A stretch of DNA of 57,394 nucleotides from Acidobacteriota bacterium (lineage in GTDB: Bacteria > Acidobacteriota > Terriglobia > Bryobacterales > UBA6623): the NCBI GenBank assembly GCA_016125275.1, contig WGMB01000014.1, positions 1-57,394 on the forward strand. Direction: 5' to 3'. The position numbers were made by a program, and so were the translations under genes. The notes beneath the pieces were generated by a model. That model was not told where the DNA came from. It saw nothing but the letters and a program-made list of their open reading frames with translations, and searched no databases. Below, piece after piece: positions 13,656 to 18,408 of the stretch. Position 1 is the first letter of the stretch; each line of letters begins with the position of its first letter.

Positions 13656-14129
13656 TCAGGCCTGTTGAGCGGCCTTGAGCTTGTCGAGCCCCTCGCCGGT
13701 CGGCACGTTGATGAACAGCACGCCGAGAAAGTCGTCGCTGTCGTTGCGCACCTCGTGTTCGCCCATCGGCGGCACGTAGATCACGTCGCCGGCGGTCACC
13801 GAGCGCTCTTCGCCGTCGAGGATGGCGAGCCCTTGGCCCGAGGTCACCACCACGATCTCCTCGGCGTCCGGATGGACGTGCAGCTCCGCCACATGGCGTC
13901 CGCCGGGGGGAATCATCATGTGATGGACGAACTGTATCGTCTGCAGGCAGGTGCGGTCCGAGCCGGCTTCCCGCTCGTAGAGCCGCACGACCGGCGCGGG
14001 GTCGTCGGCGCGGTTGCGCCAGTTCCCGTCGGCGTCCTTGACGTCGTAGCGAATCACGCGGTGCGGGTTGTTGTAGAGCAGGCTCTGGATGACGTTGTAG
14101 GCCTGTGTTTTCCAGTTGGCGATGGGCAA
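13656..14129 (-). CDS. Cupin domain protein
   Basis: 157 residues from a TTG start at 14129. This start is chosen because GGAGG (14137-14141 on the minus strand) lies seven bases upstream; a longer open frame reaches beyond the divergent promoter. The double-stranded beta-helix motifs are ELHVHPDAEEIVVVTSGQG and VIYVPPMGEHEVRNDSD, giving the usual three His and one Glu metal ligands. The role could be a small dioxygenase, isomerase or sensor; nothing narrows it. It is divergent from the receiver/CheX gene with 82 bases between starts. Confidence 0.85.
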   Translation of the reverse strand: MPIANWKTQAYNVIQSLLYNNPHRVIRYDVKDADGNWRNRADDPAPVVRLYEREAGSDRTCLQTIQFVHHMMIPPGGRHVAELHVHPDAEEIVVVTSGQGLAILDGEERSVTAGDVIYVPPMGEHEVRNDSDDFLGVLFINVPTGEGLDKLKAAQQA

Positions 14130-14163
14130 TCGGGGTCCTCCGCCGATCGAGTCGGCTTGGCCT

Positions 14164-14169
14164 ATTCTA
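14164..14169 (-). promoter_or_regulatory. Divergent -10 elements shared by cupin and receiver genes
   Basis: The minus strand reads TAGAAT here, 34 bases before the cupin TTG start. The overlapping plus-strand hexamer TATTCT (14163-14168) could serve the receiver/CheX gene starting at 14212. The two putative promoters overlap almost completely, so transcription of the two genes may be mutually exclusive. Confidence 0.45.
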
Positions 14170-14211
14170 AACGCCGACGTCAGCCCTGCCGATGAGACCA
14201 AGGAGAATCCG

Positions 14212-15507
14212 GTGAGCAGCGCGGCGGCCATCACGGACCTATCGAGTCCGATCGAGATCCTCTTGGTCGACGACGAACCGTCGATCCGGCTGCTGTTGCG
14301 TCGCTGGATCGAGAGGTCTCTGGACGCCAAGATCACCGAGGTCAGCGACGGGCTTCAGGCGCTGGAGGAGATCGCCAACGGCCACACCGAGCTGATGATC
14401 CTTGACCTCAACATGCCGGTGCTCAACGGCATCGACACGTTGCGGCTGCTGCAGGCCGACTCGGCCCGGGACCGCATCGAGGTGGTGATCGCTTCCGAGG
14501 TCGCCGCCGAGGAGCGCATCCGCGAGGTCATCAGCCTCGGCGTCTCGGACTATTTGCTCAAGCCTCTGCAGTTCGACTGGGTGACTCAGCGGCTCAAGCT
14601 CGCCTCGGAGCGGATCCATCGCCGCCGGCAAGCGACCGGGACACAGATCGACCGCAGCCGGACGCGGCTGCTGATCGCCGACCCCGACCCGAACTACTGC
14701 CAGTTCGCCGAATCCACGCTGTCGGCGAGCTTCTCGGTAGCCTTCGCCCACACGGTGGCGGAGACTCTGGTGAAGACGCTGCGGTTCCAGCCGGACGCCA
14801 TTCTGCTGAGCCCTACCATCCCGGGGCTGCGCATGGACTTTCTGGCCGATCGCCTGAAAGCGCTGCCGGGCGCCGGCGAGCCTCCTCTGTACGAGATCGT
14901 CGCGCCGGGAGTGACGGAGCCCTCGAACGCCGCCGCCAAGGGCGTCATCCCCCGCTCGTTCGTCCCTGAAACGCTGCGGGCGGAGCTGCTTTCCCTGCTG
15001 CGGGGCGGTCCGGCGCCGGAGCGGGGCGTGCTGGGCTGGGCGTCGGGGCTGGCCGGCGAGCTGACGACGGCATTATTCCAGGCCTTGGGCATGATGACCG
15101 GCGCCGAGCCGCTGGAGCTCAAGACTCCGCCGCCGGACCTCAAGCCGGTCGTCTTCGGGCGGATCGACATCATCCCCGAGGACGGATCCTTTGAAATGGA
15201 GCTGCGCCTGGAGTCCCAGGGCCCCTTCGCCGGAGCGCTGCTGGCGGCGATGCTGGGCGAGGAGGAGAGCGCCGACACCGAGGAAGCTCCGCCGCTCGAC
15301 GCCGTGCAGGAGATCCTCAACGTGGTGGCGGGCCGCGTCAAGAACTCCTGCCTGGAGCGGAAGGTGGCGGTCAACATCGGCCTGCCCGAGGTGGGAATGA
15401 CGCCCCTGCCCAGCGCCAAGGCGCACTGTGAGATCGACCGCTATTTCCGCTGGAAGGGCTCGCACGAGTTCCGGCTGATGCTGCTGGCCAGTCCCACCAA
15501 CGTCTGA
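14212..15507 (+). CDS. Response regulator with second degenerate receiver and CheX-type phosphatase domain
   Basis: 431 residues from GTG at 14212, with AAGGAGAA four to five bases before it. Domain 1 (about 13-135) is a receiver with acidic pair D20/D21, phospho-acceptor D65, S95 and K117. Domain 2 (about 150-260) looks like a second receiver, LLIADPDPNYCQF, but the acceptor position is S200, so it should not be phosphorylated. Domain 3 (about 285-431) resembles CheX/CheC and keeps the catalytic E-x-x-N motif (E367, N370) used to strip phosphate from CheY-like proteins. No kinase gene is adjacent. The protein may dephosphorylate its own receiver or a partner CheY. Confidence 0.85.
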   Translation: MSSAAAITDLSSPIEILLVDDEPSIRLLLRRWIERSLDAKITEVSDGLQALEEIANGHTELMILDLNMPVLNGIDTLRLLQADSARDRIEVVIASEVAAEERIREVISLGVSDYLLKPLQFDWVTQRLKLASERIHRRRQATGTQIDRSRTRLLIADPDPNYCQFAESTLSASFSVAFAHTVAETLVKTLRFQPDAILLSPTIPGLRMDFLADRLKALPGAGEPPLYEIVAPGVTEPSNAAAKGVIPRSFVPETLRAELLSLLRGGPAPERGVLGWASGLAGELTTALFQALGMMTGAEPLELKTPPPDLKPVVFGRIDIIPEDGSFEMELRLESQGPFAGALLAAMLGEEESADTEEAPPLDAVQEILNVVAGRVKNSCLERKVAVNIGLPEVGMTPLPSAKAHCEIDRYFRWKGSHEFRLMLLASPTNV

Positions 15508-15521
15508 TCCCTTCGCCCCGG

Positions 15522-17141
15522 CTACCAGCCGCGCTCGATTCCGACGACTTCGAACGATCCGCCCTGGTTGCGGAGGTAGACCGTCACAGCGCGGGCCGCA
15601 TCGTCGCCGACCAGCTTGGCGGCAAAGTAGTCGCCCCTCCGTGAGTCGCGCACCGCGGCGGGAAGCTCGGGGCCGGAGCCCTCCAGAGGCTGATGGGTTC
15701 CAGCCTGATTGTCGAACCGCGACCAGCTCGCCCGGATCGCCGAGGCCTTCGAGAAGCCGTACTTCTCTCCCAAGTGCGTCCAGCGGAGGCGGCCGTCGGA
15801 GACCTCAAAGCCGTCGAGCGGCAGCACGCGGCCGAAGTACTCGCGGCCGACCTTGTCCCGGCGCTCGATCAGGCAGCGGATCAGCCACTCGGCGGCGTCC
15901 GGGTTGGAGTAGCGCGCCGCCGCCACCAGCGCCCGAATCGCTTCGTCGCTGAAGGCCATCACCTTCTTGGCGGCCCAGAACGTATCGTCCGGCAAGCGAT
16001 TCGCGAAGGCCGGGTTCTTGTACTCCGGCGTCCAGCGATCCGGCTGGTAGAAGGCATGCTCGAAGCGGCCGATCGAGGGGTAGTTCTTGTAGTCCCAGCG
16101 ATACCACTTGGGGGTGTAGAGCCCCAGGCTGACGATCTGCACCAAGGCGTCGTCGATGGCGTACAGGTACTGGTTGCCGCCCCGCGGGCTGTTCGCCTCC
16201 TCGCTCGCGCTGCCCAGGATCGACCCGAAGTCGATCAGGTGGTGGCGGATGAACTGCTTGCCGCTCTCGTCGACGAGCATGTCGAGGGTGTTGATGCTGC
16301 GCGAGTCGTCGTGGCCCAGCCAGGAGCAGAACACATAGAGGCCGCGGAGGTCGCGGCGCCGCTCGTGCGGCACGAGGTCGTTGGGGTCGTCGCTGCGGGT
16401 ACCGTGGTAGCGAAACCCGCCGACGGGCTTGCCCGGCAGCAAGCGGCTGGCGAGGGCTCGGATGGAGCCGTCGGCGCCTTGGGGGACCTTCTCGAGGACC
16501 TTGACCACGTCGTAGCGGACCATCTGGCGATGGCGTCCGCCGGCGTCCAGCATGGTGACGCCCTCGCCGATCTCGAGCCGGTCGCTCTGGAAGTCGACGA
16601 TGTAGTTCTGCGGCGTGTTGTAGCCCAGGGCATGGAAGAAGCGAGACCCCAGAAAGTCCGCCGCGGAGGCCATCTCCGGGTTCTTCTTAGGGTCGAACTT
16701 GAGCAGGTAGCGCTCGCCGGTGCGGTCCTTGATCATGAAGCCCGGCGTCAAGCCTTCGGTCTTGGCCGAGACGATCGTCCAGGGGCCCTCGGCCGGCGGA
16801 CGGTCGTCGCCCGGTCCACGCACCAGCTCCTCGATCGACATCTCCCGCGAACCGATGCGGTTGGTAAACCATTCGCTGTCGGGGACCTCGCCCAAGGTGT
16901 TCACTCCCTCGGCGGGGATGAAGCCGCCGGGCGCGTCCTTGTTCTGCTCGGCCGGGTTGGCGAAGGTGTAGAGGAAGTAGTCGTAGAAGTCGCTGAGGTC
17001 CCGCTTGACGGCCTCAGTGACCGGCAACGGCTCGGGCAGCTTCCACAGCGGGTCGTCGGGATAGAACTTCGGCGCGCCGGAGAGCAGCGGCGAAGCCGCC
17101 AGGACGGCGAGCAAGAGCTTTTGGAATCCGTGGAGGCGCAT
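15522..17141 (-). CDS. Secreted protein with PI3/4-kinase or HipA-like active-site motifs, function unknown
   Basis: 539 residues from the ATG at 17141, which has GGGAG nine bases upstream; an ATG at 17150 has that sequence touching it. A signal peptide covers about residues 1-22. Residues 134-175 look like a kinase N-lobe: a glycine turn and YLLKFD with K148. Residues 277-310 look like a catalytic and metal-binding loop: HDDSRSIN (D279, N284 in D-x4-N spacing) and HLIDFGSILG (D304). This resembles the DRHxxN and DFG elements of phosphatidylinositol and HipA-like kinases. I do not recognise a named family. It starts 19 bases after the stop of the Omp85-type barrel gene, so it is in its operon. 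The kinase reading is inference from motifs. Confidence 0.6.
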   Translation of the reverse strand: MRLHGFQKLLLAVLAASPLLSGAPKFYPDDPLWKLPEPLPVTEAVKRDLSDFYDYFLYTFANPAEQNKDAPGGFIPAEGVNTLGEVPDSEWFTNRIGSREMSIEELVRGPGDDRPPAEGPWTIVSAKTEGLTPGFMIKDRTGERYLLKFDPKKNPEMASAADFLGSRFFHALGYNTPQNYIVDFQSDRLEIGEGVTMLDAGGRHRQMVRYDVVKVLEKVPQGADGSIRALASRLLPGKPVGGFRYHGTRSDDPNDLVPHERRRDLRGLYVFCSWLGHDDSRSINTLDMLVDESGKQFIRHHLIDFGSILGSASEEANSPRGGNQYLYAIDDALVQIVSLGLYTPKWYRWDYKNYPSIGRFEHAFYQPDRWTPEYKNPAFANRLPDDTFWAAKKVMAFSDEAIRALVAAARYSNPDAAEWLIRCLIERRDKVGREYFGRVLPLDGFEVSDGRLRWTHLGEKYGFSKASAIRASWSRFDNQAGTHQPLEGSGPELPAAVRDSRRGDYFAAKLVGDDAARAVTVYLRNQGGSFEVVGIERGW

Positions 17142-17160
17142 CGTCGTCATCTCCCTCGAC

Positions 17161-18408
17161 CTAGAACGGATTGCCGAACCGGAACCACATCCGCATCCCT
17201 TCGTGGCTGAAGGCGAAATCCAGGCGCAGGAAGGTGGCGTTGCGGATGTTGAACCGGAAGCCGAAGCCGGCGTTGGTCTGCATCTGCTGGAGCTGGAAAA
17301 GTCGACGCTGCGGAGCGACCTGGCCGGCGTCGAAGAACAGCGCCATATCGAGCCCGGAGAACGCCTCCCAGCGGTACTCGGCGTTCATCACCAGTACGTT
17401 GTCGTCGTAGAAGCGGTAGTTGCGAAAGCCTCGCAGCTCGCCGGGGCCGCCGATCCAGGGCTTGAGGTAGAACGGCACGCTCTGGTCGCCGTCGGCGTAG
17501 GAGAACAAGCTGCGCGCCCGCAGCACAATCACGCGCTTCTTGTTGAAGAAGGGGAGGTACTGCTGGCCTTCGAGCTCGAGCTGCCGAAAGTCGTGGCGGC
17601 CGAGCTGCCGATCGTCGAAGTAGTTGAGCTTGGCCGCCAGGTAGGAGCCGGCGCGCGGACCCCTGGGGTTGTCGCGCAGATCGAGCTCCACGAACGGCCC
17701 GCCCCGCACGAAGCTCGTCTGGTCCGCCAAGCCCGGAACCGCGGCCGGCGAGAACAGTTGCTCGGTCGAGGGGAACTCCGTGCGGCCGCCCGGTCCGGTG
17801 TTGACGTTGAGCGAGCCGCCGGTGAGGCCCATGCGCAGGTAGCGCCCGAACGGCTTGTACGCCACGGTTCCGGTGAAGCTGGTGTCCTCCAGGCGGAACG
17901 AGGTCCGGTCGGCGAGCAAGGTCTCCGGCCCGAGGCCGTAAAAGTCCACCCGCGCCAGGTTGCGCTGCTCGGCCAGAAAGTCCAGCTCCAGGCGGCCGTC
18001 GGCCAGACGAGGCGCGCTGATCCTCAAGTCGTACTTCTGGGAACGGCTGGTGGAGACCACGCCGCTGGTGAAGAAGTCGACGCGGCCGCCGGCCAGACCC
18101 TTCTTGAAGTACTGCGCGCCCAAGGCGAACCCTTGGCCGGTGGCCAAGCCGCCGAGCTTGGGGAAGACGCCTTCGGAGACCGAACCGAACCGCTGGAGGA
18201 CTTGGTGATCCTTGAGGGCCAGCAGCTTCCGCTCGATGCCGGTCGGCTCCTCGGGCTTGGCGCCGGCCGCCTTTTCCTTTCTCTCTTCGAGGATCTTCTC
18301 GGCCCGGGTCGACGGCTCGGCTCCCTCTTGCGCTGCCGCGGCGGAAGCCAAGAAGAGGATCGCCAACGCCTGTGCGGCCCTGCCGCAGCGAGGTACGCGG
18401 AGTTGCAT
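17161..18408 (-). CDS. Omp85/BamA-superfamily outer-membrane barrel (bacterial surface antigen type) without POTRA domains
   Basis: 415 residues: signal peptide (about 1-26), a short charged linker (about 27-60) and then alternating amphipathic strands to a C-terminal phenylalanine, typical of an outer-membrane beta-barrel. The segment IGGPGELRGFRNYRF holds the conserved RGF loop motif of the Omp85 superfamily. At this length there is no room for POTRA repeats, so it is unlike BamA or TamA and closer to stand-alone D15-like barrels. Transcribed with the kinase-motif protein downstream. Confidence 0.82.
   Translation of the reverse strand: MQLRVPRCGRAAQALAILFLASAAAAQEGAEPSTRAEKILEERKEKAAGAKPEEPTGIERKLLALKDHQVLQRFGSVSEGVFPKLGGLATGQGFALGAQYFKKGLAGGRVDFFTSGVVSTSRSQKYDLRISAPRLADGRLELDFLAEQRNLARVDFYGLGPETLLADRTSFRLEDTSFTGTVAYKPFGRYLRMGLTGGSLNVNTGPGGRTEFPSTEQLFSPAAVPGLADQTSFVRGGPFVELDLRDNPRGPRAGSYLAAKLNYFDDRQLGRHDFRQLELEGQQYLPFFNKKRVIVLRARSLFSYADGDQSVPFYLKPWIGGPGELRGFRNYRFYDDNVLVMNAEYRWEAFSGLDMALFFDAGQVAPQRRLFQLQQMQTNAGFGFRFNIRNATFLRLDFAFSHEGMRMWFRFGNPF

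Follow-up and report, generated by a model that had tools for sequence, protein, structure and literature searches.

An exported protein of predicted kinase fold paired with a POTRA-less Omp85 barrel in Acidobacteriota: a candidate envelope phosphorylation module

A 57,394-nt stretch of DNA from an Acidobacteriota bacterium (Terriglobia; Bryobacterales; UBA6623; assembly GCA_016125275.1, contig WGMB01000014.1), here called the window, carries the gene of an exported protein of predicted kinase fold directly behind the gene of an Omp85-superfamily outer-membrane barrel without POTRA domains. On balance we lean slightly towards this kinase-barrel pair being the core of an extracytoplasmic phosphorylation module. 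Four computed results carry this reading: the predicted fold, the conservation of catalytic residues, the pairing with the barrel, and the association with carrier and phosphatase genes. An earlier note on this DNA had described an exported protein beside a stand-alone Omp85 barrel. Both open reading frames (ORFs) were found where it had placed them, the neighbour is a PF01103 barrel, and its interpretation is supported, namely that a protein with conserved residues of a kinase-like active site is exported and tied to such a barrel. The survey of further genomes points to an envelope phosphorylation module that has an ATP supply of its own.

The pairing of the kinase and barrel genes is near-absolute. 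The barrel gene was found directly upstream, on the same strand, at 107/109 kinase ORFs; the two exceptions, L245 and L255, sit at a contig end (L and G numbers are our handles for loci and genomes). The 109 homologues consist of 35 of the 38 main-family matches in close relatives and 74 from the phylum, with fragments, weak matches and repeats omitted. Among 100 close-relative genomes, 29 with and 71 without the kinase (5 genomes with only weak matches, on a shorter family described below, were left out), the barrel is present in 29/29 kinase-bearing genomes versus 5/71 of the others. Co-conservation of the pair across Acidobacteriota, proposed by the earlier note as a check, was thus borne out. 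In the window the two genes are separated by 10 bases. The sequence GAGGGAG abuts the first ATG of the kinase-fold gene and lies 9 bases ahead of a second in-frame ATG at 17141; because it is better placed before the latter, the 539-residue start may be the right one. Residues are numbered here from the first ATG (542 residues), so that K151, D282, N287 and D307 correspond to K148, D279, N284 and D304 of the earlier note. The features are as follows.

15522..17150, minus strand: exported kinase-fold protein; 542 codons counted from the first ATG or 539 from the ATG at 17141
17161..18408, minus strand: POTRA-less Omp85-superfamily outer-membrane barrel, 415 codons, PF01103 at 2.9e-15
17067..17150, minus strand: signal-peptide-like N-terminus, residues 1-28, no lipobox (sequence and a crude hydropathy test)
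15813..16841, minus strand: predicted kinase-like domain, residues 104-446 (model pTM 0.68 and fold search)
16698..16700, minus strand: K151, candidate ATP-binding lysine (K in 87/109)
16344..16397, minus strand: family motif R252-x-DD-x-ND...H...R..R269 (invariant in 109/109)
16290..16313, minus strand: catalytic-loop-like HDDSRSIN with D282 and N287 (D in 101/109, N in 103/109)
16224..16235, minus strand: IDFG segment with D307 (D in 107/109)
15525..15824, minus strand: predicted C-terminal beta domain, about residues 443-542 (DSSP of the model; weak Ig-like matches, Z at most 6.4)
17425..17436, minus strand: loop-6 LRGF motif of the barrel (motif counts in 108 barrel ORFs)

The barrel protein (415 residues) matches PF01103 at 2.9e-15, with 57 bits against a cut-off of 24; its NCBIfam Omp85_fam score of 99.5 bits is below the cut-off of 200. 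Pfam detected the Omp85 domain alone, with no POTRA match. The loop-6 motif is well conserved in 108 barrel ORFs (R in 106, G in 100, F or Y in 105; two ORFs are gapped here), and the F-x-D-x-G motif is also present in the family, which places it in the Omp85 superfamily. Several barrel relatives have no kinase match beside them (G052:C7 (L289), G007:C102, G081:C7, G037, G044, G050 and G072), some of which may be cut copies at contig ends. L252 harbours a tandem barrel-kinase-barrel-kinase arrangement, and one kinase, at L032, is preceded by two barrels.

The exported protein is predicted to have a protein-kinase-like fold, nearest to CtkA/HipA, Fam20, CotH and PI4KII. A full-length model made from an alignment with four relatives (mean pLDDT 58, pTM 0.60) is well predicted in the N-lobe, the late helices and the C-terminal beta domain. 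Its best structural match in PDB is CtkA (Z 13.3; 224 residues, root-mean-square deviation (rmsd) 4.1), and Fam20C (Z 13.1; 243 residues, rmsd 3.8), Fam20A (Z 13.0; 242, 4.0), PI4KII-alpha (Z 11.0; 234, 4.6), HipT (Z 10.9; 207, 3.9) and CotH (Z 10.8; 228, 4.6) follow; PI3-kinases reach Z 6.6. All top structural matches are kinases, as expected for a bilobal kinase fold, of which the C-lobe is poorly predicted here. Foldseek with the full model ranked Fam20C first (1.3e-4). With the domain alone (residues 104-446, pTM 0.68) the order is similar: CtkA Z 12.7, Fam20C 11.9, CotH 10.7, PI4KII 10.7 and HipA 10.4, with the lipid kinase MavQ (8.9), VPS34 (6.7), RIO kinases (5.7) and SidJ (5.2) lower. 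The kinase-like fold that the earlier note had proposed from motifs is therefore seen in the fold searches, with CtkA, Fam20, PI4KII, HipA/HipT and CotH kinases on top. Its likening of the protein to phosphatidylinositol kinases needs refinement: the family is not specifically one of phosphatidylinositol kinases, as none of 58 members matched PF00454 (PI3/PI4 kinase) at E <= 1.

The catalytic residues are largely conserved. In the 109 homologues D282 is D in 101, N287 is N in 103 and D307 is D in 107, as the earlier note had expected; the lysine K151, which it had included as a fourth residue, is less well kept (K in 87). All four residues are intact in 85/109 copies and the D/N/D set in 99/109; the other ten are termed degenerate here. 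Most copies keep the canonical D+5=N and DFG spacing. An alignment of 58 sequences, including the window protein, gave K 53, D 54, N 56 and D 58 (the self-copy L001, the duplicate L031, the fragments L027, L029 and L053 and L030, of another family, were omitted). Furthermore, R252, D254, D255, N257, D258, H262, R266 and R269 are each conserved in 109/109. Since this R252-R269 motif is invariant even in degenerate copies, its probable role is in folding or with a partner, not in chemistry. Six long members (L213, L223, L226, L230, L266 and L276) carry 418-608 extra C-terminal residues; five of the six are degenerate at D/N/D, no carrier gene was found near any of them, and the tails in L223 and L226, genes also listed as L043 and L046, matched no Pfam family. 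In L033 the frame is apparently out of register over about 40 residues ahead of the kinase strand (L033:6304-6430).

Export of the protein is indicated by a hydrophobic stretch that precedes the conserved mature start (a DDP motif) in 96/101 ORFs in which the motif was found (of 112 ORFs, three of them of the short family). Lipoprotein anchoring was considered and rejected, as a lipobox-like pattern occurs in only 1/101 ORFs.

Pairs are often accompanied by a gene for a putative nucleotide carrier. Gene calls, signal-peptide test and local profiles were home-made, and carriers and phosphatases were counted at E <= 1e-8. A gene recurring near 20 pairs encodes a relative of the TLC (PF03219) ATP/ADP carriers; PF03219 was found over its cut-off of 21 in 6/7 neighbours scanned (22.7-67 bits), with no match for L161. 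In L152-L155 the carrier gene lies behind the kinase gene and is separated from it, or overlaps it, by a few bases (the start in L152 is uncertain); in L156 and L158 it lies ahead of the barrel gene. A TLC match is present in 26/29 kinase genomes versus 10/71 others among the close relatives (p 9e-13). In the phylum sample, from which G379 and G383 were omitted as weak for this comparison, the carrier is present in 56/61 kinase genomes versus 69/335 others. It lies within 5 kb of 17/38 kinase matches, compared to 0.10 expected. A survey of 108 loci, covering roughly 5-9 kb per side and often shortened by a contig end, revealed the carrier in 47; in 23 of these its frame directly follows the kinase on the same strand. 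The kinase tree requires at least 25 changes in carrier presence; the carrier-kinase link has therefore been made or lost repeatedly. The genome of the window harbours two carrier genes elsewhere. An Omp85 frame of 1021 residues lies alongside in this own-genome carrier neighbourhood; it was not counted, as its N-terminus reads like that of a POTRA-bearing BamA.

Phosphatase genes are a second class of recurrent neighbours. The 62 same-strand genes scanned within 250 bases of a pair (of 63, one being the kinase ORF itself) include 8 PAP2, 5 Metallophos and 2 dual-specificity-type members, compared to at most 1 of each among 120 opposite-strand control neighbours scanned (of 204). With the control count taken as one, Fisher p is 9e-4 for PAP2 and 0.018 for Metallophos. 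PAP2 genes as such are common, with 0-10 matches per genome and presence in 98/100 genomes. One examined example of each phosphatase kind begins like an exported protein. The 108 loci comprise 13 with PAP2, 9 with Metallophos and 3 with the dual-specificity type; 24 have any phosphatase and 57 a carrier or a phosphatase.

Sequence profiles set the family apart from known kinases. The window protein alone gave no match in Pfam, NCBIfam or PDB sequences, and neither PF06702 (Fam20C) nor PF08757 (CotH) matched any of the 58 members at E <= 1. HipA_2 (PF20613) was weakly matched by 19/58 members at E <= 1 (best 7.8e-4); the window protein gave none at E <= 10. Profile comparison of the family yielded 98.5% with a shorter exported family, over the domain, and 77.5 and 53.6% with two HipA_2 sets, for the N-lobe only; CotH gave 0.6% and the barrel 0.4%. 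The shorter family itself gave 0.4 and 0.6% with HipA_2. Searched against PDB sequences, the 58-member profile found a weak pyruvate carboxylase match only (E 0.52). Fam20C was also sought in 99 genomes of the phylum; there was no match, a result of little weight since the positive controls gave none either. No PADLOC match at E <= 0.01 was obtained for kinase, barrel or one carrier, so that a known defence system was rejected; one short exported relative has a PADLOC match at 0.0013.

The family is found in soil-dwelling Acidobacteriota. A kinase match at E <= 0.001 was found in 63/396 genomes of the phylum, some of them weak or fragmentary. A contig scan of 84,980 species, insensitive since it demands exact short peptides, gave 4 loci, all titled Acidobacteria or Terriglobia. 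No relative was found in the viral contigs or plasmids searched. The shorter kinase-like family (about 350 residues, exported, with WDLKDENN and SDLGS motifs and without an adjacent barrel) is represented by L030:1348-2385 on the plus strand, L070-L082 and L088-L092. It occurs in 13/100 relatives (18 match, 5 of them via the main family), and three of its ORFs, which turned up in the locus kinase search, stand outside the 109. A dual-specificity-type (DSP), PAP2 or Metallophos gene lies in the surveyed stretch of its loci L284, L285, L286 and L288. HipA_2 (PF20613) kinases, seen at G000:C12 and in 87/100 relatives, are near-universal.

No fixed role was found for the other neighbours of the pair in the window. 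The oxidoreductase encoded upstream showed no clustering with the neighbours of 20 other pairs. The downstream gene (14116-15507, plus strand, convergent with the kinase-fold gene) encodes a response regulator with a weak CheX-like C-terminal part; it clustered with genes of 4 other loci, probably because of the common receiver domain.

From these results we infer catalysis itself, phosphate transfer as opposed to some other ATP-dependent chemistry, ATP transport in the outward direction, a kinase-barrel contact, and the substrate. The kinase-fold protein would be exported, fold in the periplasm and work at the outer membrane with the POTRA-less barrel, which may anchor it, present its substrate, or pass a product or protein outwards. 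An inner-membrane NTT/TLC-type ATP/ADP carrier, whose gene belongs to the cluster in many genomes and lies elsewhere in others, the present one included, would supply periplasmic ATP, and the phosphatases beside the pair might reverse or balance the modification. The substrate could be an envelope protein or a lipid, and the PAP2 neighbours lean slightly towards a lipid. The complete scheme, a dedicated ATP-driven phosphorylation at the periplasm and outer membrane in which an outward-running carrier feeds a Fam20/HipA-fold kinase on the barrel, with phosphatases as erasers, is plausible, though we stop somewhat short of calling it probable.

Several observations weigh against the proposed module. 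The structural model is middling in confidence, and is poor in two parts of the mature chain, the first 71 residues and the catalytic-loop region at 211-362; with the domain alone Foldseek gave no match under 0.001 (the best was Fam20, at 1.7e-3). Barrel relatives do occur in those 5/71 genomes without a kinase. The TIGR00769 model of nucleoside triphosphate/diphosphate (NTP/NDP) exchangers, with a cut-off of 387, gives 35.5-57.9 bits in 5/6 carriers and none in the sixth; because the carriers score so far below it, ATP is a likely but unproven cargo. Such carriers and phosphatases are lacking near the pair in the window and near its paralogue (43% identical), and 51/108 loci have neither in the stretch surveyed. 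Carrier presence is not linked to an intact K151 (37/85 intact versus 10/24 non-canonical loci, p 1.0). The opposite-strand controls also contain a PP2C phosphatase and two Exo_endo_phos members.

K151 itself is absent in 22/109 copies (E, R, Q or S in 18; A, I or T in 4), which also speaks for a pseudokinase scaffold, in which the kinase fold is retained to bind the barrel and not for catalysis. The same explanation would account for the R252-R269 motif, which is separate from the recognised catalytic residues and persists in the 10 degenerate copies, all of which retain the barrel. It seems quite improbable, given D/N/D intact in 99/109. Carrier and phosphatase genes moreover stand beside D/N/D-intact copies only (0/10 degenerate versus 57/98 other loci, p 3e-4); this comparison, however, was made post hoc and loses its significance once the tree is taken into account (7 pairs, none in the same direction, median p 0.25).

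If the fold is active, its chemistry may differ from protein phosphorylation. The fold class is versatile: SelO AMPylates and SidJ, met here at Z 5.2, glutamylates. The matches of the domain alone to PI4KII (Z 10.7) and MavQ (Z 8.9), together with neighbours of the PAP2 family, which is rich in lipid phosphatases, would suit a lipid target. AMPylation, glutamylation, or phosphorylation of a small molecule, sugar or lipid is a respectable candidate that we nevertheless judge doubtful, as dual-specificity-type and Metallophos phosphatases occur as well and the D+5=N and DFG spacing is canonical in most copies. The near-absolute gene pairing could also reflect secretion, with the barrel as a translocon in the two-partner or type Vd manner and the kinase-fold protein as cargo that is displayed or released and modifies extracellular targets. 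The Omp85 relatives PlpD and TpsB export proteins, as set out in the sections concerned of PMC4104836; both possess POTRA, however, which the present barrel lacks, and an inner-membrane carrier would feed the periplasm and not the exterior. A secretion pair is therefore considered unlikely.

The bacterial periplasm is usually considered poor in ATP, and an exported kinase therefore raises the question of its ATP source. The parts of the proposed phosphorylation module are of known kinds; the association with carriers and phosphatases is what the present survey adds. No description of an exported kinase-barrel-carrier combination was found in the open-access papers searched, which took in few subscription papers and no bioRxiv preprints. 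One gene cluster ties together three puzzles, i.e. the ATP source of exported kinases, the role of NTT carriers in free-living bacteria and that of Omp85 barrels without POTRA, and makes each of them testable. If the complete scheme is true, bacteria would possess an analogue of the Golgi kinase system, and a function would be found for the NTT carriers of free-living species.

Among known systems, the Fam20 secretory-pathway kinases, which act outside the cytoplasm, resemble the exported protein in fold (Z 13.1 and 13.0 for Fam20C and Fam20A; first rank in Foldseek). They differ in sequence (9-11% identity, no PF06702 match), and the present family is bacterial and has an Omp85 partner. The CotH spore-coat kinases likewise share the fold (Z 10.8) and act outside the bacterial cytoplasm, but the present family has no PF08757 match, gives 0.6% in profile comparison, and belongs to a Gram-negative envelope without spores. 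CotH is related to Fam20C, and the relevant part of one report calls its ATP source unanswered (PMC7821199). The HipA, HipT and CtkA kinases provide the best structural match (CtkA), the HipA_2 matches of 19/58 members and the N-lobe profile matches of 77.5 and 53.6%; they differ in that the present family is exported and barrel-paired, and the profile match is confined to the N-lobe. PI4KII is alike in fold (Z 11.0) and in D+5=N and DFG-like spacing, but PF00454 is not matched and PI3-kinases reach only Z 6.6. In architecture the barrel fits the 'noNterm' Omp85 subfamily, which has no POTRA or other N-terminal domain; an assembly role was predicted for it, and the section devoted to it names no kinase partner (Heinz and Lithgow 2014, PMC4104836). 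An enzyme is also combined with an Omp85 barrel in the PlpD-type (type Vd) patatin-Omp85 fusions, as described in the same paper; here the genes are separate, the enzyme has a predicted kinase fold and POTRA is lacking. NTT carriers, finally, are broadly distributed in free-living bacteria, while all characterised ones are, according to the part concerned, from parasites or organelles (Major et al. 2017, PMC5381601). The present carriers are alike in exceeding the PF03219 cut-off; here they are clustered with an exported kinase, which suggests that their job is ATP export.

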